In this document: piece by piece, positions 49,490 through 64,000 of the stretch
Layout: every line of letters starts with the position of its first letter
Numbering within the stretch: the stretch's first letter is position 1
Source: an uncultured Bacteroidales bacterium
GTDB lineage: Bacteria; Bacteroidota; Bacteroidia; Bacteroidales; UBA932
Length of the DNA: 64,000 nucleotides
Assembly (NCBI GenBank): GCA_905233345.1
Contig: CAJODQ010000008.1
Coordinates: 61,200-125,199 of the forward strand
Reading direction: 5' to 3'
Notes under the pieces: model-generated
The model's input: the letters and a program-made list of their open reading frames with translations, nothing else
The model's database searches: none
Told to the model about the DNA's origin: nothing
Translations under genes and position numbers: made by a program

Positions 49490-52400
49490 CTATTCGAGGC
49501 CGATCCGGCTCTTGTCCGGGGCCGGCGGGGTAGGCGGCAGCGGCTTCCAGTTCTTCATTTCGGCTTTCAACACCTCGATGGCTTTGTCGAGCTGGGCGTC
49601 TTTGCCCTGGTAATCTTCGAACGGGTTGATGTCGATGTCAATGTCGGGATCCACGCCGTGTCCTTCGATGATCCACTTGCCTTCCAGCGAGTAGGAGGTG
49701 AAGAACGGGGTGCGCATGTCCTGTCCGTCGAGATAGGACCGTGAGCCGGAGATGCCCACGATACCGCCCCACGAGCGCTTGCCGATGAGCTTGCCCAGGC
49801 CGAGCTGGCGGAAGCCATACGGGAAGAGGTCGCCGTCGGACGAGGAGTACTTGTCGATGAGGCAGACCTTCGGGCCGTAGAAGGCCTGGTTCGGCACGGG
49901 CTGGTTGGCACCGTTGCGGTACATGCTCATGCGGTATACTTCGCGCTGCAGGCGCTCCAGGATCATCGGGGAGACGTTTCCGCCGCCGTTCATACGGTCG
50001 TCGATGATCAGGGCTTTCTTGTCGAGCTGCGTGTAGAAGAGCTTGGTGAACATGTCGAGGCCTTCGGTGCTCATGTCGGGGATGTGGATGTAGCCGATCT
50101 CACCGTTCGACGCCTTGTCGACCTTCTCGATGTTCTTGTTGACCCATTCGTAGTAGGCCAGGTTGCTCTCGTCGGCCACCGGTTTCACATACACGGTGCG
50201 GGCGTTCTTGCCGGTCGCGTTGTCGGCAATCTCGAGTGCGACAGTCTTGCCCACCTTGCCCACGAGGGCCTGGTAGATGTCGATCAGTTCGTTGGACGGA
50301 GTGCCGTTCACCTTGGTGATGTACTGGCCGACCTTGGCGTTCACGCCGGCAGCGTCAAGCGGGGAGACGAGGGTCTTGTCCCACGATGCACCCTTGAAGA
50401 TGTGCTCGATGCGGAAGGCACCGGTCTTGGGATCCTTGCTGAACTTGCCGCCCAGCAGGCCGGTGGCGATGCGCGGGATCTCCGGCACTTCGCCCGAAGT
50501 GATGTAGGCGTGACCCACGGTCAACTCGGAGATCATCTCGCCGATGAGGTAGGTCAGGTCGTGGCGGTGTTTCACATAGGGCAGCATCACGGCGTATTTG
50601 TCGTGGATGGCGTTCCAGTCGATGCCGTGCATGTTCTCCACGTAGAAGTTGTCGCGGGTCACGCGCCAGCTTTCGTCGTAGATCTGGCGCCATTCGGCCT
50701 CATGGTCGATGAGCATGTCCATCTCCTGGGTCGGGACGGGTGCGTCGAGTCTGGCCGGGCCGCCCCAGGCCGTCACATAGAACTTGCCGCCGTCGCGGAC
50801 GAGGCATTTCTTGTGGTCGGGCGTGAAGCTCAGGGGCATGTTCTTCGGACCGTCGGAGGTCTGCAGGGTCTTGAGGTCGAGCACCTTGACGGCCGATGCG
50901 CTGCCGCGGGCACCGCCCGGGCCACCGGCCGGCATGCCGGGCATGCCGCCGCCGAAGCTGCTGTAGTAGAGCTTGTCGTTGTCAGCCAGGATCAGGCGGT
51001 AGCGGCCGGCCGGCAGCGGCAGCACGCTGACGCGCTGGCCGATGCCTTCGACATCCACCTTCATCTTGGCGGGTTTTTCAGCCGCTGGCTTCTCAGGAGC
51101 CGGCTTGCCGGGCGCACCGGGTGCCGGGCCACCGGGCCTGGGGCCTTCAGGTTTCGCCGGCTTGACCCCGTATTCATCCGACGTCATCGTCGTCGGGTCG
51201 GGCGTATCCTTGGCCAGCGGAATCACGAACACATAGGAGTTGATGCTGTAGGAGGCGTTCCATTCCACCTGTGAATACTGGGAGCGGAGCTCGCGGGCCG
51301 AGGTGAAGAACAGGTATTTGCCGTCCTGCGAGAACATCGGGCTGGAGCAGTCGTACCAGCGGTCGGTGACCTGGTAGGACTTGCCGGAAGCCACGTTGTA
51401 GAGATAAATGGCCGAGATATCGTTGTCCAGCCCCATGGTGTAGGTGGCCCAGCTGCCGTCGGCCGAGAGGGTGAAGCCGCGCGGAGCGCTGGTCTGGCTG
51501 ACGATGATGCGGTCGAGCTTGCCGGATGCCACGTCGAGGCTGTAGATGTCGCGCTTCAGCGTGCTGAAATAGAGCGTCTTGCCGTCGGGCGACCACTGCA
51601 GGTTGCTAGGGTAACCATCGGTGAAATGGGTCAGCTGGCGGGGATGTTCCATGTCGTTGGAAGGCGCCACGTAGACCTGGTATTCGCCGTCCTTGTCAGA
51701 GAACCAGGCGACGTTCTTGCCGTCCGGGCTCCATTCGGCTTCACGCTCATGCGCACCCGGTGTGTGGGTGACGTTGCGGACGTCGCCCTTGCGGGCCGGG
51801 AGGGAAAAGACGTCACCGCGACCTACCAGGAGCACGCGCTCGCCGTCGGGCGAGAGGCTGTAGGAATTCAGGCGGTCGGAGACATTCTTGTATTCGGGAC
51901 GGCTGTAGAGGTTGTCGTTCTCCAGGTAGATGGTCACTTTTTCGCAAGTGCCTTTCTTGACGTCGTATTTATAGATGTAGCCGCCGTTCTCGAAGACCAC
52001 GTACTGCTGGGAGTAGGAGGGGAACTTGCAGTCGTACTCTTGGAAGTCCGTCACTTTGCGGGTCTTCTTGGTCTTGGTGTCGTAGACGAAGAGGTTCATG
52101 AAGCGGTCGCGGTCGGAGAGGTAGTAGATCTCGTTGCCGATCCACATCGGGAAGATGTCCTGGGCGTCGTTGTCGCTGATCTTCTCGAGCTTCGTGGTGC
52201 CGACCTGGTTGATCCAGATGTCGTCGGCCTGGCCGCCCCGGTAGTATTTCCAGGTGCGGAACTCGCGGAACATGCGGTTCATGGCGAGCTGCTTGCCGTC
52301 GGGCGAGTAGCTGCAGAAGCCGCCCTCGGTGGTGGGGATCTCCTCGGCGGGGCCGCCCAGGGCGTTGACCTTGCAGAGCTGGCCGCGCAGGCCGCTGAAG

Positions 52401-52822
52401 CACCACTGTTTGCTGCGGTACACGATCTGCTTGCCGTCAGGGGTCCAGCACATGACGATGTTGTTGGGGCCCATGCGTTCGCCCACCATGTCGCGGCTCA
52501 CGAGGGCCGACCAGGTGACGCGCCGGGGCTCGCCGCCCGTGATGGGGATGGTGTAGACTTCAGTGTTGCCGTCGTACTGGCCGGTGAAGGCCACGGTCTG
52601 GCCGTCGGGCGAGATGCGCGGGAACACTTCGTAGCCCACGTGGGAGGTCAACTTCACGGCGTCGCCGCCGTTGATGCCGACACGGTAGAGATCGCCGGCG
52701 TAGCTGAACACGATGTGGTCGCCGCCGACGGCAGGGAATCGGAGCAGGCGCGCCTCCTGGCGGTCTGCGGCAAAGGCCAGCAGCGGAAGCAGGGCTGCCA
52801 GCACGGTGAGGATTCTCTTCAT
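49490..52822 (-). CDS. Tricorn-like S41 serine peptidase
   Basis: 1110 residues, signal peptide (cleavage after AFAAD region). The N-terminal two-thirds is beta-propeller of PD40/WD type (ISPDGQTVAFTGQ, WSPDGKTLYFST and others), followed by a Pro/Ala/Gly/Lys-rich insert (about 555-590), a second domain, a PDZ domain (LDAAGVNAKVGQYITKVNG) and an S41 core: RMNGGGNVS and the nucleophile Ser in KYSSSDGDLFPYGFR. It should degrade peptides in the periplasm. The insert looks disordered and resembles a linker. Confidence 0.9.
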   Translation of the reverse strand: MKRILTVLAALLPLLAFAADRQEARLLRFPAVGGDHIVFSYAGDLYRVGINGGDAVKLTSHVGYEVFPRISPDGQTVAFTGQYDGNTEVYTIPITGGEPRRVTWSALVSRDMVGERMGPNNIVMCWTPDGKQIVYRSKQWCFSGLRGQLCKVNALGGPAEEIPTTEGGFCSYSPDGKQLAMNRMFREFRTWKYYRGGQADDIWINQVGTTKLEKISDNDAQDIFPMWIGNEIYYLSDRDRFMNLFVYDTKTKKTRKVTDFQEYDCKFPSYSQQYVVFENGGYIYKYDVKKGTCEKVTIYLENDNLYSRPEYKNVSDRLNSYSLSPDGERVLLVGRGDVFSLPARKGDVRNVTHTPGAHEREAEWSPDGKNVAWFSDKDGEYQVYVAPSNDMEHPRQLTHFTDGYPSNLQWSPDGKTLYFSTLKRDIYSLDVASGKLDRIIVSQTSAPRGFTLSADGSWATYTMGLDNDISAIYLYNVASGKSYQVTDRWYDCSSPMFSQDGKYLFFTSARELRSQYSQVEWNASYSINSYVFVIPLAKDTPDPTTMTSDEYGVKPAKPEGPRPGGPAPGAPGKPAPEKPAAEKPAKMKVDVEGIGQRVSVLPLPAGRYRLILADNDKLYYSSFGGGMPGMPAGGPGGARGSASAVKVLDLKTLQTSDGPKNMPLSFTPDHKKCLVRDGGKFYVTAWGGPARLDAPVPTQEMDMLIDHEAEWRQIYDESWRVTRDNFYVENMHGIDWNAIHDKYAVMLPYVKHRHDLTYLIGEMISELTVGHAYITSGEVPEIPRIATGLLGGKFSKDPKTGAFRIEHIFKGASWDKTLVSPLDAAGVNAKVGQYITKVNGTPSNELIDIYQALVGKVGKTVALEIADNATGKNARTVYVKPVADESNLAYYEWVNKNIEKVDKASNGEIGYIHIPDMSTEGLDMFTKLFYTQLDKKALIIDDRMNGGGNVSPMILERLQREVYRMSMYRNGANQPVPNQAFYGPKVCLIDKYSSSDGDLFPYGFRQLGLGKLIGKRSWGGIVGISGSRSYLDGQDMRTPFFTSYSLEGKWIIEGHGVDPDIDIDINPFEDYQGKDAQLDKAIEVLKAEMKNWKPLPPTPPAPDKSRIGLE

Positions 52823-52824
52823 GT

Positions 52825-53700
52825 TTATAGGATATTGAGTGTTTGTTCCTTGATCTTTTCGAGCTCGTCTTTCATCTTCACCACGATCTTCTGGATCTCG
52901 GCGTGGTTGGCCTTCGAGCCGAGGGTGTTGATCTCGCGGCCCATCTCCTGGGCGATGAAGCCGAGCTTGCGGCCGGGCATGGGCTCGTTGTCCGCGGTCT
53001 CGCGGAAGTAGCGGCAGTGCTGGCGCAGGCGCACCTTCTCTTCATTGACGTCGAGTTTCTCGAGCCAGAAGATCATCTCCTGCTCGAGGCGGTTGCCATC
53101 CATCTGCAGGGCGATCTCCCGGGCGCGAGCGTCGATGCGTTCGCGGATGGCCGGCACGCGTTCGCGTTCGTAGCGCTCCACTTCGGGGATGTAGCTTTCG
53201 ATCTTGTCGACCTGGGCGAGGACGTCGTTGCGGAGGCTGACGCCCTCTTTGGCGCGGAAGGCGTCAAGGGCGTCGACGGCTTGGCGGATGGCGGCGAAGA
53301 GGGTCTCCCACTGGTCGGGCGCCAGTTCGGTGCTGCGGGTCTCCAGCACGTCGGGCAGGCGCATCAGCGAGCCGAGCATCACGTCGGGTTCGCAGCATTC
53401 CAGCGTCGTCCCCTGGATGGCCTCCTGCAGCTGCTCGTAATAGGCCAGCAGGGTTCCGCGGTTGATCTGTTTCGTGGCGGCGCCTTCGGAACGTTCAACG
53501 GTGATGAAGAGGTCGATGCTGCCGCGGCCGAGCTGCTCGGCGATGTATTTGCGGACTTCGACTTCCTTGTCGCGGGGGATGAGGGAGCTTTTGAGGTTGA
53601 TGTCGGCGTTCTTGCCGTTGACCGAGCGGATCTCGATGAGGTATTTGTCTGAGCCCAGCAGGCACTCTGCCTTGCCGTAGCCCGTCATGGATTTCAGCAT
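52825..53700 (-). CDS. YicC family endoribonuclease-like protein
   Basis: 291 residues. N-terminal LKSMTGYGKAE and C-terminal FIAQEMGREINTLGSKANHAEIQ (DUF1732) are the YicC hallmarks. YicC proteins were linked to RNA cleavage or sRNA stability. It sits 2 bases upstream of the tricorn-like gene and so shares its transcript. Confidence 0.92.
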   Translation of the reverse strand: MLKSMTGYGKAECLLGSDKYLIEIRSVNGKNADINLKSSLIPRDKEVEVRKYIAEQLGRGSIDLFITVERSEGAATKQINRGTLLAYYEQLQEAIQGTTLECCEPDVMLGSLMRLPDVLETRSTELAPDQWETLFAAIRQAVDALDAFRAKEGVSLRNDVLAQVDKIESYIPEVERYERERVPAIRERIDARAREIALQMDGNRLEQEMIFWLEKLDVNEEKVRLRQHCRYFRETADNEPMPGRKLGFIAQEMGREINTLGSKANHAEIQKIVVKMKDELEKIKEQTLNIL

Positions 53701-53743
53701 GCTGTGTATCGGGTTTAACGCGTTAAAGATAGTGATTTTTTCC

Positions 53744-53751
53744 TATATTTG
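53744..53751 (+). promoter_or_regulatory. Bacteroidota -7 box of glnS
   Basis: TATATTTG, 21 bases before ATG 53773. Confidence 0.6.
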
Positions 53752-53772
53752 CAGGTCAAACCGCTCGCAAAC

Positions 53773-55425
53773 ATGGAAGAAGAGAAGAAAAACAATTTCC
53801 TCGAAGAGATCATCGAGGCGGACCTCGCAGCCGGAAAGTACGACACCATCATCACCCGCTTCCCGCCGGAGCCGAACGGCTACCTCCACCTGGGACACGC
53901 CAAGAGCCTGTGCATCAATTTCGGACTGGCACAGAAGTATGGCGGCAGGACGAACCTGCGCTACGACGACACCAACCCCACGAAGGAGGATGTCGAGTAC
54001 GTGGACGCCATCAAGGAGGACATCAAGTGGCTGGGCTTCCAGTGGGCAGAGGAACGCTATGCGTCGGACTATTTCGACCAGCTCTACGAATGGGCGGAGC
54101 AGCTCATTGAGCGTGGTCTGGCGTATGTCGACGACCAGACCCTCGAGGAGATTCGCGTGAACCGCGGCACCGTGGAGCAGCCGGGCATCGACTCGCCCTG
54201 GCGCAACCGCAGCGTCGAGGAGAACCTGCGGCTCTTCCGTGAGATGAAAGCGGGCAAATATCCCGACGGGGCGAAGGTGCTCCGCGCGAAGATCGACATG
54301 GCGCATCCCAACATGATGTTCCGCGATCCGATCCTCTACCGCATCAAGCACGCGCATCACCACCGCACGGGCGACAAGTGGTGCATCTACCCGATGTACG
54401 ACTACACGCACGGCCAGTGCGACTCCATCGAACACATCACCCACAGCATCTGCACGCTGGAATTCGATATCCACCGCCCGCTCTACGACTGGTTCATCGA
54501 GACCCTGGGCATCTACCCCTCGCACCAGTACGAGTTCGCGCGCCTGAACCTGACCTACACGCTCATGAGCAAGCGCAAGCTGCTGGAGCTGGTGGAGAAG
54601 GGCTTCGTTTCGGGCTGGGACGACCCGCGCATGCCGACGCTCTGCGGCGTCCGTCGCCGCGGCTACACGCCGGAGGCGCTGAAGATGTTCTGCGAGAAGA
54701 TCGGCGTGAGCAAGCGCGATCAGCTGATGGACATCGGGCTGCTGGAATACTGTGTGCGCCAGGACCTGAACGAGCGCAGCAACCGTTACATGGTGGTCTC
54801 GGACGATCCCATCAAGGTGACGCTCACCAACTGGGAGCCGGGCGAGGTGGAATGGTTCGAAGCGCCGCTCAATCCGGCGGATCCGGAAGGGGCCAAGCGC
54901 AAGGTTCCGTTCACGGGCGAGCTGCTCATCGACCGCGCCGACTTCATGGAAGACGCGCCGAAGAAGTTCTTCCGCCTGCGTCCGGGTGGGGAAGTGCGCC
55001 TGAAATACACCTACATCATCCAGTGCAACGAGCTTGTAAAGGATGCCGCGGGCAAGGTGGTGGAGCTCAAGTGCACCTACGACCCGATGACGCATCCGGC
55101 CTCCGGGCAGTGGCGTTCGGTCAAGGGCACGATTCACTGGGTGTCGACGGCCTTTGCCAAGGAGATCGAGTGCCGGCTTTACGACCGCCTCTTTACGTTG
55201 GCTGACATGTCGCAGGTGCCTTGCGACAAGGACTACAAGGATTTCCTCAATCCGGAGAGTCTGGTCGTCCGTAAGGGTTGGGCCGAGCCCGCCCTCCTCG
55301 ACGATCCCGGCGATCTGGCGGTGCAGTTCGAGCGCGTGGGCTACTTCAAGAAAGATCCTGACTCCACGCCCGACCACCTCGTCATGAACAAGACGACAAG
55401 TCTGAAAGATTCCTTCAAATTGTAG
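53773..55425 (+). CDS. glnS: Glutamine--tRNA ligase
   Basis: 550 residues from ATG 53773 (an earlier ATG overlaps the -7 box region). HIGH-type PEPNGYLHLGHAKS, KMSKS-type LMSKRKLL, and the C-terminal beta-barrel anticodon-binding region. A direct glutaminyl-tRNA route means the indirect GatCAB route need not supply Gln-tRNA. The choice of GlnS over GltX follows from RFPPEPNGYLH and the barrel (KYTYIIQCNE). Confidence 0.94.
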   Translation: MEEEKKNNFLEEIIEADLAAGKYDTIITRFPPEPNGYLHLGHAKSLCINFGLAQKYGGRTNLRYDDTNPTKEDVEYVDAIKEDIKWLGFQWAEERYASDYFDQLYEWAEQLIERGLAYVDDQTLEEIRVNRGTVEQPGIDSPWRNRSVEENLRLFREMKAGKYPDGAKVLRAKIDMAHPNMMFRDPILYRIKHAHHHRTGDKWCIYPMYDYTHGQCDSIEHITHSICTLEFDIHRPLYDWFIETLGIYPSHQYEFARLNLTYTLMSKRKLLELVEKGFVSGWDDPRMPTLCGVRRRGYTPEALKMFCEKIGVSKRDQLMDIGLLEYCVRQDLNERSNRYMVVSDDPIKVTLTNWEPGEVEWFEAPLNPADPEGAKRKVPFTGELLIDRADFMEDAPKKFFRLRPGGEVRLKYTYIIQCNELVKDAAGKVVELKCTYDPMTHPASGQWRSVKGTIHWVSTAFAKEIECRLYDRLFTLADMSQVPCDKDYKDFLNPESLVVRKGWAEPALLDDPGDLAVQFERVGYFKKDPDSTPDHLVMNKTTSLKDSFKL

Positions 55426-55441
55426 CTCGTGTGCTGGTTCG

Positions 55442-55743
55442 CAGGGTATGCCTTGCTCAACCACCCTCCCACTACGTGGGCCCCTCCCACTGGGGCGTGG
55501 GCGCCATGTTTCTCAAGGCATACCCTGTCTCACGGATCGCACACTTCGCCATGCCTTTGCTTGCGCCATGCGCGGGTGGGTGCTTGCTCCAGAACACATG
55601 CCACCCTCGGCACTGTAAGAGGGAGGGGCCCATGCGTAGCATGGGAGGGGTCGAGCGTAGCGAGACGGTTCTGGAGCAACACCCAGAGCGCACCAGCAAG
55701 CAAATCGAAGAACGGAAGCAATGCCTAGTGCGACAAGCGCAAG
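55442..55743. repeat. Structured non-coding block of inverted repeats
   Basis: The 324-base gap between glnS and mqnC has no credible gene. It contains a perfect 14-bp inverted repeat (CAGGGTATGCCTTG at 55442-55455 and its complement at 55514-55527), a near-perfect 17-bp pair around CTCCAGAAC (55587-55595) and GTTCTGGAG (55670-55678), and local hairpins CCCATG-cgtag-CATGGG and GTCGAGCGTAGCGAGAC. Its end (55716-55743) resembles the 6424-6451 element. It may be a mobile palindromic element or a structured RNA. Confidence 0.6.
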
Positions 55744-55749
55744 AAAGAG

Positions 55750-56853
55750 ATGAAAATGAATAGATTATCAAAAGAAGAGGCGACGCGGTTGTATCGGGAG
55801 GTGCCGTTGGAGGAGCTCTCCGGAATGGCCGATGCCGAACGCTACCGGCATGTGCCGGAGCGCCGCGTGAGCTACCAGATCGACCGCAACATCAACTATA
55901 CCAACGTCTGCCTCTCCGGCTGCAAATTCTGCAACTTCCATTGCCGCCCCGACGAACCCGAAAAAGCGTATACACTTGCTTTCGAAGACTATCTGCCGAA
56001 GATCGCCGAGCTTCGGGCACTTGGTGGCGACCAGCTGCTGCTGCAGGGCGGCCTCCATCCGAAGTATGGCATCGACTGGTACGAGACGCTGTTCCGACGG
56101 CTGAAAGAGGCCGAGCCTTCTTTGAAGCTCAATGCCCTGGGCCCGCCGGAGATCGCCCACATCGCCCGCGTCAGCAAACTGTCGTATCACGACGTCCTCG
56201 TCCGGCTGCGCGCCGCCGGCCTCGACACGCTGCCCGGCGCCGGCGCCGAGATCCTCAGCGACCGCGTGCGCCGCTTCCTGTCGCCGGCCAAACCGACCGC
56301 GCAACAGTGGCTCGACGTGATGGGGGAGGCCCACCGCCTGGGCATGAGCACCACGGCCACCATGGTCTACGGCCATGTCGAAACCCTCGAAGAACGCATC
56401 GATCACCTGCTCGCCCTGCGCGCCCTGCAGGACGTCCGCCCTGCCGGCACGCCCGGCTTCCGCGCCTTCATCTGCTGGCCCATGCAGCTTACGGGCACTG
56501 AACTTCAGCGCCTGGCCGACGCCGGCCGCCTGCCCGCAGGATTCGCCCTGCCGGGCGCGGCGACGGACTGGAGTCCCGCCGAGGCGTTCCTCCGCACCGT
56601 CGCCATCGCCCGCCTCGTGCTCGACAATGTCGACCACATCCAGGCCTCCTGGCTCACCGTCGGCCTCGACACGGGCGTCTGCGCCCTGCACGCCGGCGCC
56701 GACGACATGGGCTCCATCATGATCGAAGAAAACGTGGTCTCCGCGGCCGGCAGTCACAACCTGCTCTCCGACGGCGAGCGCACCTTGCGCGCCGCCATCA
56801 CCGCAGCCGGCTTCGAACCCTGGCTCCGCGACCAGGAATACCGTCCCCGCTAG
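55750..56853 (+). CDS. mqnC: Cyclic dehypoxanthine futalosine synthase, MqnC
   Basis: 367 residues. Radical SAM motif TNVCLSGCKFC (C54, C58, C61), then GGDQLLLQGGLHPKYGIDWY and LPGAGAEILSDRVR. MqnC cyclises dehypoxanthine futalosine in the futalosine route to menaquinone. I distinguish it from MqnE and CofH by LLLQGGLHP and the GAGAEILSD motif. No other mqn gene is visible. It ends 3 bases before REPIN-like element A. Confidence 0.88.
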   Translation: MKMNRLSKEEATRLYREVPLEELSGMADAERYRHVPERRVSYQIDRNINYTNVCLSGCKFCNFHCRPDEPEKAYTLAFEDYLPKIAELRALGGDQLLLQGGLHPKYGIDWYETLFRRLKEAEPSLKLNALGPPEIAHIARVSKLSYHDVLVRLRAAGLDTLPGAGAEILSDRVRRFLSPAKPTAQQWLDVMGEAHRLGMSTTATMVYGHVETLEERIDHLLALRALQDVRPAGTPGFRAFICWPMQLTGTELQRLADAGRLPAGFALPGAATDWSPAEAFLRTVAIARLVLDNVDHIQASWLTVGLDTGVCALHAGADDMGSIMIEENVVSAAGSHNLLSDGERTLRAAITAAGFEPWLRDQEYRPR

Positions 56854-56856
56854 CAG

Positions 56857-56980
56857 CTCTGGCCACAGAATGACGCTCCCACTGGCTACGGCCATTCTGT
56901 GTCCTAGAAACCGCCGTTTTTGCCCGAATCCTGGACACAGAATGCCTCTCCGTCCCGCCAGCATTATTCTGTGGCCAGAG
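56857..56980. repeat. Paired-hairpin (REPIN-like) element A, 124 bp
   Basis: 15-bp perfect inverted ends CTCTGGCCACAGAAT / ATTCTGTGGCCAGAG. Inside are two hairpins with arms CACAGAATG / CATTCTGTG; the first loop is 20 bases (56873-56892). The linker carries CCGCCGTTTTTGCCCGAATC. The second hairpin has a 3-base insertion. The right end reaches into the RAYT gene and provides its last codons and stop. Confidence 0.85.
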
Positions 56981-57959
56981 CGCTATACTTCATGCAGAGG
57001 CAACGACGGAGTTGTGCCTCCGTGAAGGTTCGACCATTCAACCAAGGTTCTTTCTGGCGGTTCAACGAAAGCAGATTTTTCTGCCAGAGCCAGTCGTACA
57101 ACTTGATTCGCTGGTTCTGGGTGAGGGCATAGACAGATGCATCATCCGGATTCCGGAAGATCCGTGGAAGTAGCCTTTCGTCAATCAGCTGGCAGAGTTC
57201 GATATCGGTCATTCGGTGGCGGTTCACCTTCCCCTGCTCAAAAGTCCGCGTCAGTTTCGGATCGAAGTCCGGGACATTCGTTTCCATTAGGTCCAAGGTG
57301 ATAGGTGGTGTATCGTTCTCGTTCTTCTGTGCCTGGATGTCCCGGTCATCTTCGCCGGTACGGTTCATGTGAAACAGGTAGTTGCGTGGTGTGATATAGA
57401 TTTCTTCCACGTAAGCCGTATCCAGAATGTCCTCCCGAAGCAGCAGGCCGGACCGGTCCATCCGATATTGCTCCGGAATCCGGATATTGGAGGGAAGGAA
57501 CTGACAACGTTTCGAAGGAGGCATCAGTTCAGGAACCTGGATTTTGCCAAGTGCCTGGCGAAAGAAGGTATTGGCCGAACCATGCGCATAATCGAAGGGC
57601 GTGGCGGCGAGCCCGTGATGCAGCCCCTGACGATTGACATAGTCGAGGGCCGCCTGCAGATGATACAGGCCTTCGACTTCCAGCATGAAATAATATTTCT
57701 CTCCCAGCCTCCCTTTTCGTTTATACTTTGTATTGAAGTATCGGGCATAGGCGTTCCTGTCGCGATGCATCAACTCACGCGGACAGTCAGACTGCGCCAT
57801 GCTGTGATGATGGGTGGACATGAATCCTTCAGCCAGCGCCCGTGATTCCGTAGACAGACTGGCAACCGCAAAACAGTTGAATCCGACAATCAGGTCGGCC
57901 TCATTGCGATACATGACTTCATCGTGCGATGAAAGACATAGATGAACGGTCTTTCTCAT
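56964..57959 (-). CDS. REP-associated tyrosine transposase (RAYT), HUH nuclease family
   Basis: 331 residues. The Y1-transposase signature has His-x-His at H50-H52 (STHHHSM), then ARYFNTKYKRKGRLGEKYY (about 72-90) and DYVNRQGLHHGLAATPFDY (about 106-124), as in IS200/IS605-like TnpA_REP proteins. The HUH core lacks the usual bulky hydrophobic residue between the His pair (HHH). A C-terminal extension of about 190 residues has no domain I recognise. The protein lies between elements A and B, and its stop codon (TAA, 56964-56966) is inside element A. AAGGAGG upstream of ATG 57959 is a genuine Shine-Dalgarno site. RAYTs are thought to mobilise REP elements; activity here is unproven. Confidence 0.8.
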   Translation of the reverse strand: MRKTVHLCLSSHDEVMYRNEADLIVGFNCFAVASLSTESRALAEGFMSTHHHSMAQSDCPRELMHRDRNAYARYFNTKYKRKGRLGEKYYFMLEVEGLYHLQAALDYVNRQGLHHGLAATPFDYAHGSANTFFRQALGKIQVPELMPPSKRCQFLPSNIRIPEQYRMDRSGLLLREDILDTAYVEEIYITPRNYLFHMNRTGEDDRDIQAQKNENDTPPITLDLMETNVPDFDPKLTRTFEQGKVNRHRMTDIELCQLIDERLLPRIFRNPDDASVYALTQNQRIKLYDWLWQKNLLSLNRQKEPWLNGRTFTEAQLRRCLCMKYSALATE

Positions 57960-58072
57960 AGCATTCTCCCTCCTTCAACAATCTCCTGCGCCATCCCGCT
58001 CCACGAACCATTCGCTTCATCAAGAATGCTGGCAGATGCAAAAACACCTTGCAAAAAATGTGCTACCTCCAT
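57956..58072 (-). CDS. Small open frame coupled to the RAYT gene
   Basis: 38 codons from ATG 58072, starting MEVAHFLQGVFASASILDEA. Its stop overlaps the RAYT ATG (ATGA) and the Shine-Dalgarno of RAYT lies inside it, so it could act as a leader peptide for translational coupling. No domain is recognised. It may be non-coding. The longer in-frame sequence (to 58606) crosses element B and is rejected as a protein. Confidence 0.35.
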   Translation of the reverse strand: MEVAHFLQGVFASASILDEANGSWSGMAQEIVEGGRML

Positions 58073-58112
58073 GTAGATCCTGCGGTAACCCTGTCGTTCA
58101 GTCTTGCGGCCC

Positions 58113-58228
58113 GGCCACAGAATGTCGCTCCCGCTGGCCACAGCCATTCTGTGGCTGGAAAACCGCCGTTTTTGCCCGAATCCTAGACACAGAATGACGC
58201 TCCGCTCTGTCACAGCCATTCTGTGGCC
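58113..58228. repeat. Paired-hairpin (REPIN-like) element B, 116 bp
   Basis: Ends GGCCACAGAATG / CATTCTGTGGCC are perfect inverted repeats. Hairpin 1 (58114-58155) and hairpin 2 (58188-58225) both have 20-base loops (58125-58144; 58197-58216). The 32-base linker between them reads TGGAAAACCGCCGTTTTTGC and onward to GAATCCTAGA. The remainder of the 370-base gap to recG (58229-58329) has short inverted G/C-rich stretches and no gene. Confidence 0.88.
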
Positions 58229-58329
58229 CTGCCAGCGCGGAGCTGGCGAGTGTTTTTTGGAGCCGCGAGCATTTTTTCTGCGAGCGGGACAAAAAACCGA
58301 GTCAGTGGAGCGCCGGCGGGGCGCCGAAA

Positions 58330-60429
58330 CTACGAAATCTTGGAGTAATCTTTGACGGTCGTGTCGAGCCGCAGGGTGCGGAGCTGCTCGACGAGCAGGC
58401 GGTTTTCGATGCGTTCCAGGAGCGGGTCGTCGGCCAGGATCTTTTCGCCGAGCTCGCGGGCTTCCACCAGCGCCGGCGAATCTTTCGCCAGATCGGCGAT
58501 GTGCAGGTCGAAGGCCAGGCCGCTCTGGCGCGTGCCCTCGAAATCGCCCGGGCCCCGCATCTTCAGATCCGCTTCCGCCAACTCGAAACCATCGTTCGTG
58601 GCACACATCAGCTCGATGCGCTGCTTCGACTCGTTGCTCAGCTTGTAGCCCGTCATCAGGATGCAGTACGACTTTTCGGCGCCACGGCCTACACGACCGC
58701 GCAGCTGGTGCAACTGCGAGAGCCCGAAACGCTCGGCGCTCTCGATCACCATCACCGACGCGTTCGGCACGTCCACGCCCACTTCAATGACAGAGGTAGC
58801 CACCAGAATATGCGCCCGGCCCTTCGCGAAGAGATCCATGTCGTAGGCCTTGTTCTCGGCCTTCTGCTTGCCGTGCACCACCGCCGTCACATACTGCGGC
58901 GCCGGAAAGGCCTCCGTAATATGCAGGTAACCCTCTTCCAGGTTCTTGTAGTCCATTTTCTCCGACTCCTTGATGAGCGGATACACCACAAACACCTGGC
59001 GGCCCAGCGCGATCTGCTGCCGCATGAAATTGTAAAGGTCGCCGCGGCGGTTCTCCGTCCAGTGCACCGTCTCCACCGGCTTGCGGCCCGGCGGCAGCTC
59101 GTCAAGCACCGATACGTCGAGATCGCCGTAGAGCGTCATGGCCAGCGTGCGCGGGATGGGCGTGGCGGTCATCACCAGCACGTGCGGTGCCACGGCCGAC
59201 TTCGACCAGAGCTTGGCGCGCTGCTCCACACCGAAGCGGTGCTGCTCATCGATGACGGCGAGCGCCAGGTTGCGGAACTGCACGGTATCTTCAATCAGGG
59301 CATGCGTGCCCACGAGGATCTGCACCGAACCGTCGCGCAGCCCTGCGTGAATCGCTTCGCGCTCTTTCGCTTTTGTGTTGCCGGTCAGCAATTCGACCCG
59401 CGCGCCGGAGGGTGCCAGGAACTTCAGCATGCTGTGGTAGTGCTGGTTGGCGAGCACCTCGGTGGGCGCCATGACGCAGGCCTGGAAGCCATTGTCGAGT
59501 GCCATCATGGCCGCGAGCACCGCCACCAGCGTCTTGCCGCTGCCCACGTCGCCCTGCAGCAGGCGGTTCATCTGCTTGCCGCTGCCCACGTCCGAACGGA
59601 TCTCCTTGAGCACGCGCTTCTGCGCGCCCGTCAGCGGGAACGGCAGCGCCTCGTACGTCTTGTTGAAATAGTCGCCGATGCGGCGGAACACCACCCCGCT
59701 GTCGGCCCGCATACGGATGCTTTTCTGCCGCAGCAGGGAGAGCTGCAGGTAGAAGAGCTCCTCGAATTTCAGGCGGCGCTGCGCGCGGGACAGATCCTGC
59801 ACCGAGCCCGGGAAATGGATGTTCTGCAACGCAAAGTCCAGCGGCGCCAGGTGCTTCTGATCCCGGATCCAGGCCGGCAGGGTCTCTTCGAGCGTGCCCA
59901 GCACCTTGTCGAGCAGCGTGCCGATCATCTTCTCGAAGAACTTGTTGGTGATGCCGGCGGCGTGCAACTTTTCGGTGCTCGAATACACGCCCATCATCAC
60001 GCCGAGCTGCGAGAGGCGCTCCTCCGTGGCCAGATCCACCTCGGGATGGACCAGGTTCCAGCTCTGCCCGAAGACGGAGGGCTTGCCGAAGACCACGTAT
60101 TCCGGACCGATCTGCAGTTTTTCCTCCATCCACTTGATCCCTTTGAAGAAGACCAGGTCAATCGAGCCTGTGCCGTCGGTGAAACGTGCCACCAGTCGCT
60201 GGGAGCGGGCCTGCCCAACTTTGTCGATGCGGGTGATGCGGCCGCGCAGCTGGATGTACGCCGACGACGAGTCGATCTCCCGCACGCTGTAGAAACGCGA
60301 GCGGTCGACATAGCGGAAGGGGAAATAATAGAGCAGGTCGCGGAAGGTACTGATGCCCAACTCTTTGTTTAAAAGCTCAGCCCGTTTCGGACCCACCCCC
60401 GGCAGGTATTTGATGTCGCTGTCCAGCAT
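58330..60429 (-). CDS. recG: ATP-dependent DNA helicase RecG
   Basis: About 699 residues from ATG 60429 (MLDSDIKYLPGVG); ATG 60438 is an alternative, both directly after the promoter. Helicase motifs: GDVGSGKTLV (I), DEQHRFG (II, IDEQH), MTATPIPRTLAM (III), and ESAERFGLSQLHQLRGRVGRG (V-VI). The N-terminal wedge domain has GRITRIDKVGQ. RecG remodels stalled forks and branched DNA. Confidence 0.95.
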   Translation of the reverse strand: MLDSDIKYLPGVGPKRAELLNKELGISTFRDLLYYFPFRYVDRSRFYSVREIDSSSAYIQLRGRITRIDKVGQARSQRLVARFTDGTGSIDLVFFKGIKWMEEKLQIGPEYVVFGKPSVFGQSWNLVHPEVDLATEERLSQLGVMMGVYSSTEKLHAAGITNKFFEKMIGTLLDKVLGTLEETLPAWIRDQKHLAPLDFALQNIHFPGSVQDLSRAQRRLKFEELFYLQLSLLRQKSIRMRADSGVVFRRIGDYFNKTYEALPFPLTGAQKRVLKEIRSDVGSGKQMNRLLQGDVGSGKTLVAVLAAMMALDNGFQACVMAPTEVLANQHYHSMLKFLAPSGARVELLTGNTKAKEREAIHAGLRDGSVQILVGTHALIEDTVQFRNLALAVIDEQHRFGVEQRAKLWSKSAVAPHVLVMTATPIPRTLAMTLYGDLDVSVLDELPPGRKPVETVHWTENRRGDLYNFMRQQIALGRQVFVVYPLIKESEKMDYKNLEEGYLHITEAFPAPQYVTAVVHGKQKAENKAYDMDLFAKGRAHILVATSVIEVGVDVPNASVMVIESAERFGLSQLHQLRGRVGRGAEKSYCILMTGYKLSNESKQRIELMCATNDGFELAEADLKMRGPGDFEGTRQSGLAFDLHIADLAKDSPALVEARELGEKILADDPLLERIENRLLVEQLRTLRLDTTVKDYSKIS

Positions 60430-60441
60430 CTGTGGCATACA

Positions 60442-60449
60442 CAAAAATA
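60442..60449 (-). promoter_or_regulatory. Bacteroidota -7 box of recG
   Basis: TATTTTTG on the minus strand, 12 bases before ATG 60429, so the leader is very short or absent. Confidence 0.55.
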
Positions 60450-60485
60450 AGAATTTTTTGTATCTTGCGGAAAATTTAGAAGCTC

Positions 60486-61565
60486 ATGAAAGATAAGATA
60501 GTGGTGGGCATCGCTCAAGGTGACACCAATGGAATTGGATATGAAGTGATCATCAAGGCGCTGTCCGATGCACGCATCCTCGAAAACTGCGTCATCGTGC
60601 TCTACGGCTCCTCCCGTTTCTTCGGCATCTACCGCAAGTTCCTGCCCGATGTCGAGCAGGTGGCGACCAACGTGATCAACGCCGCCGAAGACGCCCGCTC
60701 CAAGCGCATCAACATCATCAACGCCGTGCCCGAAAGCATGGCCATGGAGATCGGCCAGCCGACCCCCGACGGCGCCAAGGCTGCCATCATGGCGCTCCAG
60801 GCCGCCGTGGCCGATGCCAAGCGCGGTGCCATCGACGCCATCGTCACCGCCCCCTTCAACAAGCACACCGTGGCCGAAAACGGCTTCGGCTTTCCTGGCC
60901 ATACCGAATACCTCATCCACGAATTCGGCTGCGAGGATGGCCTGATGTTCCTCTGCTCGGAGAACCTCCGCGTGGGCGTGGTCACCAACCACCTCCCGAT
61001 CTCCAAGGTGAGCAGCGCCATCACCATCGACATCATCCTCAGCAAGCTGCGGCTGATGAACGCCTCGCTCAAGCGCGACTTCGGCATCATCAAGCCCAAG
61101 ATCGCCGTCATGGGACTCAACCCGCACGCCGGCGATGGCGGCATACTCGGCAACGAGGAGATCGAGACCATCACCCCGGCCATCAACGCCGCCAACAAAG
61201 AGGGCATCCTGGCCTTCGGTCCGTACTCGCCCGACGGCTTCTTCAGCATCCACATGCACGGCCAGTTCGACGCCGTGCTGGCCATGTATCACGACCAGGG
61301 GCTCATCCCCTTCAAGGCCCTGGCCTTCGACAGCGGCGTGAACTTCACGGCCGGCCTGCCGATCGTTCGCACCTCGCCCGACCACGGCACGGGCTACGAC
61401 ATCGCCGGCAAGAACAAGGCGCTCTCCGATCCGATGCAGCGCGCCATCTTCGCCGCCATCGACCTGAGCAACAACCGCCGCCGCTACGATCAGATGTACG
61501 CCAACCCGCTCGAAGCCAAGCATTTCGAGGGGCCCCGGCACGAAAAGACCATTCTGCCTGAATAG
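60486..61565 (+). CDS. pdxA: 4-hydroxythreonine-4-phosphate dehydrogenase
   Basis: 359 residues. IAQGDTNGIGYEVIIKAL at the start, then PFNKHTV, GFPGHTEYL and MYHDQGLIPFKAL with the metal His residues. PdxA oxidises 4-phosphohydroxy-threonine in pyridoxal phosphate synthesis. pdxJ is not in the window. Its stop overlaps the rnhA GTG start by one base. Confidence 0.94.
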   Translation: MKDKIVVGIAQGDTNGIGYEVIIKALSDARILENCVIVLYGSSRFFGIYRKFLPDVEQVATNVINAAEDARSKRINIINAVPESMAMEIGQPTPDGAKAAIMALQAAVADAKRGAIDAIVTAPFNKHTVAENGFGFPGHTEYLIHEFGCEDGLMFLCSENLRVGVVTNHLPISKVSSAITIDIILSKLRLMNASLKRDFGIIKPKIAVMGLNPHAGDGGILGNEEIETITPAINAANKEGILAFGPYSPDGFFSIHMHGQFDAVLAMYHDQGLIPFKALAFDSGVNFTAGLPIVRTSPDHGTGYDIAGKNKALSDPMQRAIFAAIDLSNNRRRYDQMYANPLEAKHFEGPRHEKTILPE

Positions 61566-62044
61566 TGGATCGCGCGCCCATCCAACTCTACACGGACGGG
61601 GCTTGCAGCGGAAACCCCGGGCCAGGTGGCTATGCGGCCATCCTGCGCTGCGGCAGCTATGAGAAAGTGTTCGCGGCGGGCTATGCCACCACGACCAACA
61701 ACCGCATGGAGCTGCTGGCGGTCATCACGGGTCTGGAGGCCATCCGCTGGACGCAGGCCGATGTGACCGTCTGGAGCGATTCGTCGTACGTGGTGGACGC
61801 AGTGGAAAAGGGCTGGGTGTTCAGTTGGGAGCAGAAGGGCTTCGCCAAGAAGGCCAATGCGGACCTGTGGCAGCGCTTCCTGGCGGTATACCGCCGGCAT
61901 CAGGTGCGTTTCGTCTGGGTGCGGGGCCACAACGGGCACCCCGAAAACGAACGCTGCGACCGACTGGCAGTCGCAGCATCGCAGGAGAAAAATCTGTTGG
62001 TCGACGTCGGCTACGCGTCAGTCGTTGGCGCGCAGGAAGCGTAA
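61565..62044 (+). CDS. rnhA: Ribonuclease HI
   Basis: 159 residues from GTG 61565. Catalytic residues: Asp in LYTDGACSGNPG, Glu in NNRMELLAV, Asp in VWSDSSYVVDA, and Asp in ENERCDRLA. It removes RNA from RNA-DNA hybrids. The 3' end overlaps the convergent VOC gene by 27 bases. Confidence 0.94.
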   Translation: MDRAPIQLYTDGACSGNPGPGGYAAILRCGSYEKVFAAGYATTTNNRMELLAVITGLEAIRWTQADVTVWSDSSYVVDAVEKGWVFSWEQKGFAKKANADLWQRFLAVYRRHQVRFVWVRGHNGHPENERCDRLAVAASQEKNLLVDVGYASVVGAQEA

Positions 62045-63082
62045 GGCCTTCAGCATCCAGGACGGCAGACCCTTGTGGTCGTCGCGTTTGCGGAAATCCA
62101 GATAGATCCCCCATTTTTTCATGATCGGAATCCGGAAGGTTTCGACGAACTCGATCAGGGTTCCGTCGGGGTCTTCGATATAGGTGAAGTGGCCGTCGGC
62201 ATCGCCCATGGCGAAGTCGACGCCGCTGTCGCAGACGAAGGGATGGCCGGCGGCCTGGCAGTCGCGCTCCACGGCGTCCATGTTGCGCACGTCGAAGCAG
62301 ATCTGGATGTAGCCAGGGTCGCCCCAATAGCGGTTTTCATAGATTTTCACGACGGGCGCGTCGAGGGCCTGGACGAGTTCCAGGTGTGCGGGGCCCATGA
62401 GCGGGGACAGCGGGCCTTCGAAGGGCTTGCTGCGCTCCAGCAGCACGCGGCGGACTTTGCGCTCGCTGCCGGGGATGCCTTTCAGGTCGTCGAACACGCC
62501 GGTCTGGTCAGCGCGGACAACGTCGAAGCCGAGGACCTGGCCGTAGAAGGCGATGGAGCGGTCCATGTCGCTGACGCCGAGGACGGCGCCGTCGGTGCCG
62601 CCGGTAGTCACGGTCTTGGAGCGGGCGAAGACGAAGGGGTCTTCTTCTATCTCGTAGATGTTGTCCCAGGGGTCGAAGAGATAGAAGTGCTGCAGGCCCG
62701 CGAAGGAAGCACAGGGCTTCGTCAGCAGACGGAGGCCTTCGCGCTGGAAGAAGTCATAGGTCGCCTGCACGTCGCGGCTCTTGATCTTGGCGATGAAGAT
62801 GCCGAGGTCGCCGAGCTGGGGCTGCTGCGGGGGATAGTTGAGTTCGCGGCCGCGCGGCTCCCAGATCTCCAGGCCGCCGCCGCCCTGAAGGTTGACGGCG
62901 AGGATGGCATAGCGGGGCTGAGGCTTGCCGCCGGTATAGGGCAGCATGCGTTCGGCCACGCCGACGGCGTCGACCACGGGGATGTCGATGCCGAAATACT
63001 TCCGGTACCATTTCCACGACTCTTTGGCGTCCTTGACGCCGACGCCCACCTGCTGCAGGCCGCAAATGACTTTCTCTTTCAT
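62018..63082 (-). CDS. VOC-superfamily protein (two glyoxalase/dioxygenase-like domains)
   Basis: 354 residues from ATG 63082. Two VOC modules: about 5-160 (GLQQVGVGVKDAKESWKWY ... FYLFDPWDNIYEI) and 165-325 (AVLGVSDMDRSIAFY ... FTYIEDPDGTLIEFVE). Metal ligands of VOC enzymes (His, Glu) are seen in LELVQ and LIEF, but not all can be matched. Dioxygenase, glyoxalase or binding role is undetermined. Confidence 0.82.
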   Translation of the reverse strand: MKEKVICGLQQVGVGVKDAKESWKWYRKYFGIDIPVVDAVGVAERMLPYTGGKPQPRYAILAVNLQGGGGLEIWEPRGRELNYPPQQPQLGDLGIFIAKIKSRDVQATYDFFQREGLRLLTKPCASFAGLQHFYLFDPWDNIYEIEEDPFVFARSKTVTTGGTDGAVLGVSDMDRSIAFYGQVLGFDVVRADQTGVFDDLKGIPGSERKVRRVLLERSKPFEGPLSPLMGPAHLELVQALDAPVVKIYENRYWGDPGYIQICFDVRNMDAVERDCQAAGHPFVCDSGVDFAMGDADGHFTYIEDPDGTLIEFVETFRIPIMKKWGIYLDFRKRDDHKGLPSWMLKALRFLRAND

Positions 63083-63102
63083 TCCTTCGATCGTTTGACG
63101 TA

Positions 63103-63110
63103 CAAAGATA
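63103..63110 (-). promoter_or_regulatory. Bacteroidota -7 box of the VOC gene
   Basis: TATCTTTG on the minus strand, 20 bases before ATG 63082. Confidence 0.6.
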
Positions 63111-63148
63111 GTTATTTTTCGGGCGCCAGCTACGCCGCCCCGGCTCAT

Positions 63149-63264
63149 GGCCATAGAATGACGCTAGCGGAGCGGAGCGCCATTCTGTGTCCGCTATTCG
63201 GGCAAAAACGACGGTTTTCCAGCCACAGAATGGCTGTGGCAGGCTGGAGCGTCATTCTGTGGCC
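63149..63264. repeat. Paired-hairpin (REPIN-like) element C, 116 bp, opposite orientation
   Basis: Ends GGCCATAGAATG / CATTCTGTGGCC. The linker reads as the complement of that in A and B (CGGGCAAAAACGACGGTTTT), so C is inverted. Arms at 63152-63160/63181-63189 and 63224-63232/63253-63261 again enclose exactly 20 bases each. It lies 5 kb from the RAYT gene. Confidence 0.85.
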
Positions 63265-63312
63265 GAACATTTGACGCGGAGCGCCGCTGGTTCATCGTTT
63301 GCGGATTTTTAT

Positions 63313-63320
63313 TATATTTG
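63313..63320 (+). promoter_or_regulatory. Bacteroidota -7 box of pgi
   Basis: TATATTTG, 24 bases before ATG 63345. Confidence 0.6.
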
Positions 63321-63344
63321 TACGATTAGAAAACTCACAATATT

Positions 63345-64000
63345 ATGGTAAAAATAGATCTTACGGGATGTGATTCCTTTGTCAAGAAAGAACAGTTCAA
63401 CGAATACGTCAACAAGGCCCTGGCGGCGCAGAAGGTGCTGCAGGAAGAGAGCGGTGCCGGCAATGATTTCCTGGGATGGCAGCATCTGCCTTCCTCCATT
63501 GGCCGGAAGGAGCTGGACGACTGCCTGAGTGTGGTGGACCGCTGGATCGAGCGCGAGATCGACCTGGTGGTCGTGATCGGCATCGGCGGCTCGTATCTGG
63601 GTGCGAAGGCGGCCATTGAGGCCCTGAGCCACAGCTTCGCCTGCCAGCTCGGCAGCCATGGCCCGAAGATCGTCTTCGCGGGTGAGAATCTCTCCGAGGA
63701 CTACACGGCCGAACTGCTCGACCTGATCCATGTCCGCAACCCGGCCTGCGTGGTGATCTCTAAGAGCGGCACCACGACCGAGCCGGCCGTGGCCTTCCGT
63801 CTGGTGAAGAACTACCTGGAACAGACCTACGGCAAGAAGGAAGCTTGCGAGCGCATCGTCGCCATCACCGACAAGGCGCGCGGCGCCCTGAAGTCGCTGT
63901 CGAACCAGGAGGGCTACAAGACTTTCGTGATTGAGGATAACATCGGTGGTCGCTTCTCGGTGCTGACGCCGGTGGGCCTGGTGCCCATCGCCCTGGCGGG
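63345..64000 (+). CDS. pgi: Glucose-6-phosphate isomerase (5' part, runs off the right edge)
   Basis: 218 codons are visible from ATG 63345, open to the window end. Motifs: VVIGIGGSYLGAKAAIEAL, VISKSGTTTEPAVAFR and FSVLTPVGL, the sugar-phosphate-binding SIS signature of Pgi. It interconverts glucose 6-phosphate and fructose 6-phosphate. Its upstream region contains element C. Confidence 0.93.
   Translation, partial: MVKIDLTGCDSFVKKEQFNEYVNKALAAQKVLQEESGAGNDFLGWQHLPSSIGRKELDDCLSVVDRWIEREIDLVVVIGIGGSYLGAKAAIEALSHSFACQLGSHGPKIVFAGENLSEDYTAELLDLIHVRNPACVVISKSGTTTEPAVAFRLVKNYLEQTYGKKEACERIVAITDKARGALKSLSNQEGYKTFVIEDNIGGRFSVLTPVGLVPIALA

Follow-up and report, generated by a model that had tools for sequence, protein, structure and literature searches.

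A divergent RAYT-like gene and its paired-hairpin elements in a Bacteroidales genus

Results

A RAYT-like gene lies between two paired-hairpin elements

The window analysed here is a stretch of 64,000 nucleotides from a contig of an uncultured Bacteroidales bacterium, and it contains a gene for a RAYT-like HUH/Y1 protein with one paired-hairpin element on each side and a third element farther away (Table 1). The two elements beside the gene are 116 nt each, stand as direct repeats and are 82% identical. Each consists of two 44-nt hairpins of the form GGCCACAGAATG-N20-CATTCTGTGGCC with slightly varied arms, whose starts are 72 nt apart, leaving 28 nt between the hairpins. The first-pass annotation had placed the gene exactly between the two copies; it is indeed bracketed by both, but the fit is not exact, as the downstream element overlaps the last codons of the gene and the stop codon therefore falls inside the first arm of copy 1.

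Table 1 The RAYT-like gene and the places of the type-A paired-hairpin element in the window and in its genome bin (G000).
Feature	Position in window	Position in bin	Description
RAYT-like HUH/Y1 protein gene	56964..57959, minus strand		331 aa; ORF, conserved residues, homology via kin
Putative REPIN copy 1, downstream of gene	56861..56976	C8:118060	hairpins 56861-56904 and 56933-56976, spacer 56905-56932
Putative REPIN copy 2, upstream of gene	58113..58228	C8:119312	hairpins 58113-58156 and 58185-58228
Putative REPIN copy 3, away from gene	63149..63264	C8:124348	80% identical to copy 1
Further type-A place		C8:132755	
Further type-A place		C29:23415	
Further type-A place		C46:2454	

When the whole window was scanned strictly for all four arms, two clusters were found, which are copies 1 and 2, and the same scan of 297,672 nt of base-shuffled locus sequence gave none. 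The third copy, which the first-pass annotation did not mention, escaped the strict scan because one of its arms is changed. Folded as single-stranded DNA, copies 1 and 2 reached z scores of -4.9 and -4.7 and were better than all 200 dinucleotide shuffles, and the third copy reached -6.6 against such shuffles. The paired-hairpin element is not a chance structure. A search of window positions 52000-64000 against Rfam gave no match at E ≤ 0.1.

Absence of the element from the rest of the genome had been named beforehand as an outcome that would speak against a REPIN-RAYT system. The element, which we call type A, was found at six places in the bin (2.32 Mb in 68 contigs, 89.4% complete and GC-rich), where 11 hairpins matched with at most three mismatches and the control gave 0. 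The contig of the window itself ends inside a type-A hairpin (G000:C8:132755-132796), so the assembly probably broke at the repeat.

The protein is linked to RAYTs through remote kin

The alignment of the window protein shows the motif THHH with H50 and H52, followed by Y107 and Q111, and about 190 residues extend beyond the HUH core, whose end we placed near residue 140. H50, H52 and Y107 are invariant in all 16 aligned relatives, which are 308-333 aa long; THxH and YVxRQ each occur in 15 of them, and Q111 is likewise kept in 15, the remaining one having N. The residue between the two histidines varies among the relatives and is often not hydrophobic, so that the core is H50-x-H52 and not the His-His-His read earlier.

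Direct scans of the window protein hit no Pfam or NCBIfam family at E ≤ 1, and Y1_Tnp (PF01797) matched neither this protein nor any of the 16 aligned family members. Scans of the family with PADLOC and PHROGs yielded nothing useful, the family profile had a single chance-level match in the PDB (YhcH, E 0.21), and E. coli RayT did not match the family profile (probability 0.4%). AlphaFold2 models built on alignments of only 5 and 4 sequences had pLDDT values of 41 and 38. As the models tried from Pfam, NCBIfam and similar collections miss the subfamily, annotation is likely to overlook it.

The link came from an alignment (A3) of eight remote kin, which are from related genomes and 21-32% identical to the window protein. 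The family profile aligned with A3 end to end over 281 columns (probability 100%, E 9e-60), placing the family HxH over the NHxH of the kin and Y107 over their tyrosine; at the column of Q111, A3 has N. All eight A3 kin matched REP_Tyr_transpos (NF047646) at E ≤ 0.1, the best at 1.5e-11, and the one member with scores shown had 28 bits against a curated cut-off of 80. Of ten remote proteins scanned, eight matched Y1_Tnp, with one reaching the cut-off and one exceeding it. The A3 profile reached E. coli RayT weakly (probability 20%, E 0.0012) and, in the PDB, gave weak matches to Y1 transposases and 4er8, with a best E of 0.028. The family is thus linked by homology to RAYT/Y1 proteins, through intermediates only, and the claim that the gene encodes a Y1/HUH transposase is borne out only through this profile comparison with remote kin.

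The same genome carries a remote RAYT with NHVH (L051, G000:C12:22784-23458), which has short hairpins of its own on its flanks, GATGTCCC ... GGGACATC, placed in inverted orientation. Six more remote members (L028, L030, L031, L084, L085 and L086) have other flanking repeats that do not take the 44-28-44 form, some of them arrayed at intervals of about 105-128 nt.

The family splits into eight clades, nearly all within a single genus

Matches at E ≤ 1e-3 were found in 37 of 100 related genomes, many of which have remote kin only: 28 of the 40 inside the genus and 9 of the 60 outside it. In the phylum sample, without listed family members, none of 394 other genomes matched at E ≤ 1e-20, and no relatives were found in viral contigs, plasmids or phages. 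The phylum sample agrees with the earlier view that the system is specific to this lineage, but the lineage has to be drawn more widely, as relatives are spread through much of the genus and also occur in some of the family's other genera.

A protein tree of 56 rows resolved eight clades (A-H) comprising 45 loci, counted without the partial matches L017, G018:C22 and G024:C28, and nearly all from one Bacteroidales genus; one clade-A locus is from another genus (G053). All genomes are incomplete bins, and near-identical pairs such as G033/G036 enter the row counts twice. No genome had two members of the same clade among the 45 fetched loci, while a single genome (G036) held seven clades. The genome of the window has four family members, the other three being 50, 24 and 23% identical to the window protein; several near-identical gene-bearing copies, as expected of IS200/IS605 elements, were not found in it.

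Hairpin stems follow the protein tree

The strict scan placed paired hairpins no more than 400 nt from the gene in 33 of 49 family rows, one of them the window row, and the other 16 had no strict element that close. Within 1.5 kb, a distance that some rows do not cover before their contig ends, the strict scan found an element on at least one side in 39 of the 49 rows and on both sides in 11. Bracketing by elements thus holds at the window gene and is not general in the family under the strict scan. Under looser comparison, direct repeats on both sides of the gene also appear at further loci, among them L011, L050, L059, L063, L066 and L074. Of 36 flanking elements from the strict scan, 26 had hairpin starts 72 nt apart and 7 had them 71 nt apart.

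The stems by clade are CACAGAATG in A, CGACACAGA in B, CGACAGGA and variants in C, CGACGCAGA in D, CGAAAGG in E, CGAGACGGA in F, CGAAAGG or GGACGCGA in G and GGACGCTC in H, so that one stem is common to clade E and most of clade G. A few flanking elements show the stem type of a different clade, as seen at L019, the stem label of which comes from one relaxed hairpin only. Stem types could be assigned to 44 of the 56 tree rows, 12 being left without a label, and the labels were read by us from the flanking sequence and not blind. Placed on the protein tree, the ten stem types require nine changes, the minimum possible, whereas 200 label shuffles required at least 26. The paralogous RAYT clades mostly have their own hairpin stem.

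Among 29 type-A elements the mean identity was 88% in the first arm, a value inflated because arm sequence and an exact 72-nt spacing were the selection criteria, 34% in the first loop and 48% in the spacer. Hairpins of types A and B have no regular GTAG or CGTC tag: within 15 nt of the outer arms, GTAG on either strand was found at 1 of 29 type-A and 1 of 17 type-B elements, and CGTC at 5 of 29 and 4 of 17, respectively.

Hairpin numbers and presence of the matching gene

Genome-wide hairpin counts covered types A, B, C and H in 40 genomes of the genus. Type A gave 148 matches (control 6). The eight clade-A genomes had 2-32 hairpins with a median of 9, and the 32 genomes without clade A had a median of 1; the one-sided p of 4e-5, which ignores kinship between genomes, became 8e-4, again with kinship ignored, when four hairpins were subtracted per gene-bearing genome. 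In this test G022 was counted outside clade A by its place in the tree; it has 20 type-A hairpins, the highest number without a clade-A gene, and its related gene, which branches outside clade A, is accompanied by a similar stem. A comparison of copy number with RAYT presence had been proposed in the first-pass annotation, and type-A hairpins are indeed more numerous where the clade-A gene is present, contrary to the equal frequency in relatives lacking the RAYT that the annotation had set as a second refuting outcome.

Type B gave 91 matches (control 0) and was present in only 11 of the 40 genomes: the four clade-B genomes had 9, 10, 12 and 25 hairpins, and the 36 genomes without a clade-B gene had a median of 0. 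Two genomes in which no clade-B gene was detected had 8 (G004) and 16 (G008) hairpins; four of those in G008, which has a type-D gene, are nearer to type D. For type H (86 matches, control 39), the six clade-H genomes had 5-19 hairpins against a median of 0 in the other 34, that is 52 matches against 13 in the control, compared with 34 against 26 elsewhere; 11 hairpins were found in G018, where no clade-H gene was detected. Type C (160 matches, control 52) exceeded the control only in G011 (74), G032 (11) and G034 (14), all of which have the clade-C gene, and elsewhere amounted to 61 against 49. Four genomes with a clade-C gene (G008, G018, G036 and G039) were at background for type C, perhaps owing to differing stems or geometry. 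The exceptions, in which hairpins occur without the matching gene, may be remnants after gene loss, or the genes may be missing from incomplete bins. A tandem array of 11 type-C hairpins with an exact 72-nt period was seen in G011 (L151, C23:18674-19427).

Orthologous sites with and without the gene

The window gene and its two elements occupy the gap between an mqn-like gene and recG. G001 keeps this gene order but has just one type-A element in the gap and lacks the RAYT; in G024 both are missing. As the non-coding sequence flanking the element in G001 does not align, this element may stem from a different insertion. In G024 the mqn-recG gap contains repeats of a different hairpin type (L117 2636-2804, G024:C113), GGGCACAAA ... 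TTTGCTCCCG, which is perhaps a further REP family. The third window element is missing from G001, in which the two flanking blocks join directly; G024 has it, with a different right flank.

A further site concerns clade B. In G000 the clade-B gene (C17:38450-39397) stands between two 105-nt element copies that are 99% identical, and in G004 the same surroundings (91-95% identity) contain one intact, gene-free element. The downstream copy in G000 lacks nine loop nucleotides that are kept in G004, and G004 therefore does not look like the product of a simple deletion. These alignments suggest that the clade-B gene was gained in G000, unless the nine nucleotides were lost later. The site of another G000 type-B element (C16:19448) was searched in eight genomes: G039, G033 and G036 have the same neighbouring genes, which seem to be convergent, without the element between them, and matches in the remaining five were split or partial. 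At a further G000 element (C31:5372), also searched in eight genomes, G004 shares the element and the right side and the others the right side only, which has no bearing on insertion.

Clade H is found at one place in five of its six genomes, and clade A at several chromosomal places, where a common flanking ORF within about 1.3 kb was seen, among eight loci, only for the pairs G033/G036 and G023/G011; inheritance is therefore mixed. In four genomes with a clade-A gene elsewhere (G033, G036, G028 and G015), no clade-A gene was found beside the mqn orthologue within the stretch covered. Remote RAYT-like genes of 20-26% identity lie near the mqn orthologue in G039, G028, G018 and G015 (L121, L122, L124 and L127), and the mqn spot may attract such genes.

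Discussion

We read the window family as a divergent RAYT subfamily with apparently untagged REPINs. The locus very probably represents a RAYT-REPIN system, that is, a divergent REP-associated tyrosine transposase with surrounding and scattered paired-hairpin elements that it would recognise as single strands. The suggestion of a strong REPIN-RAYT candidate, made from the window alone, is now supported by homology, catalytic residues, flanking and scattered elements, congruence of stems with clades, and presence or absence at orthologous sites. By analogy with what is established for TnpAREP (PMC8266576), the protein would recognise its own hairpins in single-stranded DNA, Y107 would cut the element at the HxH metal site, and the nicked element would be rejoined elsewhere. 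The 116-nt unit may thereby be copied or moved at a low rate, the elements spreading slowly and non-autonomously. Single-strand recognition, cleavage, transposition and a stem specificity of each protein are all predicted on this analogy. The nearly fixed distance of 72 nt suggests that the hairpin pair is treated as a single unit, in line with the REPIN proposal (PMC3116915).

The gene and its flanking hairpins could instead be an autonomous insertion sequence of the IS200/IS605 type, with the hairpins as its ends and the scattered ones as decayed or MITE derivatives. The different chromosomal places of clade-A genes would fit such an element, and so would the clade-B gene of G000, which sits within an element of which G004 has an intact copy without the gene; YxxxQ is moreover the pattern of IS200-type TnpA (Table 1 of PMC6006769). 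We nevertheless consider it unlikely, because an active insertion sequence would be expected to occur in more than one same-clade member per genome, which was the case in none of the genomes of the 45 loci, and because G000 has six type-A places for one clade-A gene, clade H keeps a single place in five of six genomes, and each flank in the window is a complete two-hairpin element rather than one terminal hairpin. A passive role, in which ordinary duplication and recombination spread the elements as transcription terminators or mRNA-stabilising hairpins and the gene is a bystander, agrees with the intergenic position of the window copies by our ORF reading and with the gene-expression roles ascribed to REPs (PMC8266576). 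It is already disfavoured and seems highly improbable to us: the stem type tracks the protein tree with zero excess change, the spacing is kept while the loops differ, type B occurs in few genomes of the genus, and type A is rare without its gene.

Within the RAYT-REPIN reading, it is a tentative proposal, to which we give somewhat less than even weight, that the RAYTs of this genus are not only fixed, vertically inherited and domesticated: the gene may enter existing REPINs, and up to seven clades may share a genome, most with a private hairpin code. We propose this because of the intact gene-free element in G004, the single element in the gap of G001 and the varied places of clade A, and because the two G000 copies are 99% identical and carry a loop deletion that simple removal of the gene would not undo. 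RAYTs have been described as single-copy and vertically inherited (PMC8049555), and the clade-A and clade-B sites suggest that this rule is not fully valid in the genus. That whole RAYT genes are present at some REPIN sites and absent from others is relevant to how RAYTs are gained and lost, a matter that PMC8049555 states to be left aside in its main model. If the proposal is true, the genus would offer several mutually orthogonal HUH hairpin nucleases, and a natural series in which the drift of a hairpin code could be followed. Eight clades in essentially one genus, most of them beside a differently coded hairpin, make a ready test of how RAYT and REP keep recognising each other during change.

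No publication on the window family was found in the RAYT, REPIN and TnpAREP literature or that on Bacteroidetes, with subscription journals partly covered, and none of the rows 1.1, 1.2, 2.1-2.8 and 3 of the motif table, in the excerpted text of PMC6006769, combines THxH with YxxRQ. RAYTs with atypical hairpins in Bacteroidetes have already been published as TnpAREP subclass 2.6, or RAYT group 5 (Quentin et al. 2018, PMC6006769). That subclass shares with the present family the phylum, the atypical flanking hairpins and the copies elsewhere in the genome, but, compared by printed motifs, it has NH[LIV]H, YIH[QN]NP and 179 aa, whereas the window protein has THxH, YxxRQ and 331 aa. Subclass 2.3 is similar in length (325 aa) but differs in having NHYH and YVDLNP and in belonging to Chromatiales and Alteromonadales, and no hairpins are reported for it in the same excerpt (PMC6006769). 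The pattern Y---Q--HH of TnpA_Y1 subclass 1.2, from Cyanobacteria and Bacteroidetes, is that of YVNRQGLHH here; that subclass, however, has DH[IV]H, 148 aa and, in the excerpted text, no reported hairpins, as against THxH, a long C-terminal part and hairpins in our family (PMC6006769). Class 3 TnpA_Y1 likewise combines a tyrosine motif containing Q with atypical flanking structures, and three related genes occur in one bacterium, but its NHVH, 178 aa, CnGA foot and other phyla set it apart (PMC6006769).

The REPINs of Pseudomonas fluorescens SBW25 (Bertels and Rainey 2011, PMC3116915) are similar in layout, as they too consist of two inverted hairpin units and a spacer, form tandem arrays and adjoin a RAYT. 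The distance in the SBW25 GI REPIN is 71 bp and mostly 72 here, but SBW25 has 430 doublets and hundreds of copies, whereas here there are tens, the stem differs between clades and types A and B lack a regular GTAG-type tag (PMC3116915). E. coli RayT and its BIMEs likewise place an HUH/Y1 protein amid palindromes, although RayT has 165 aa and GTAG-tagged REPs and shows no profile match to the window family.
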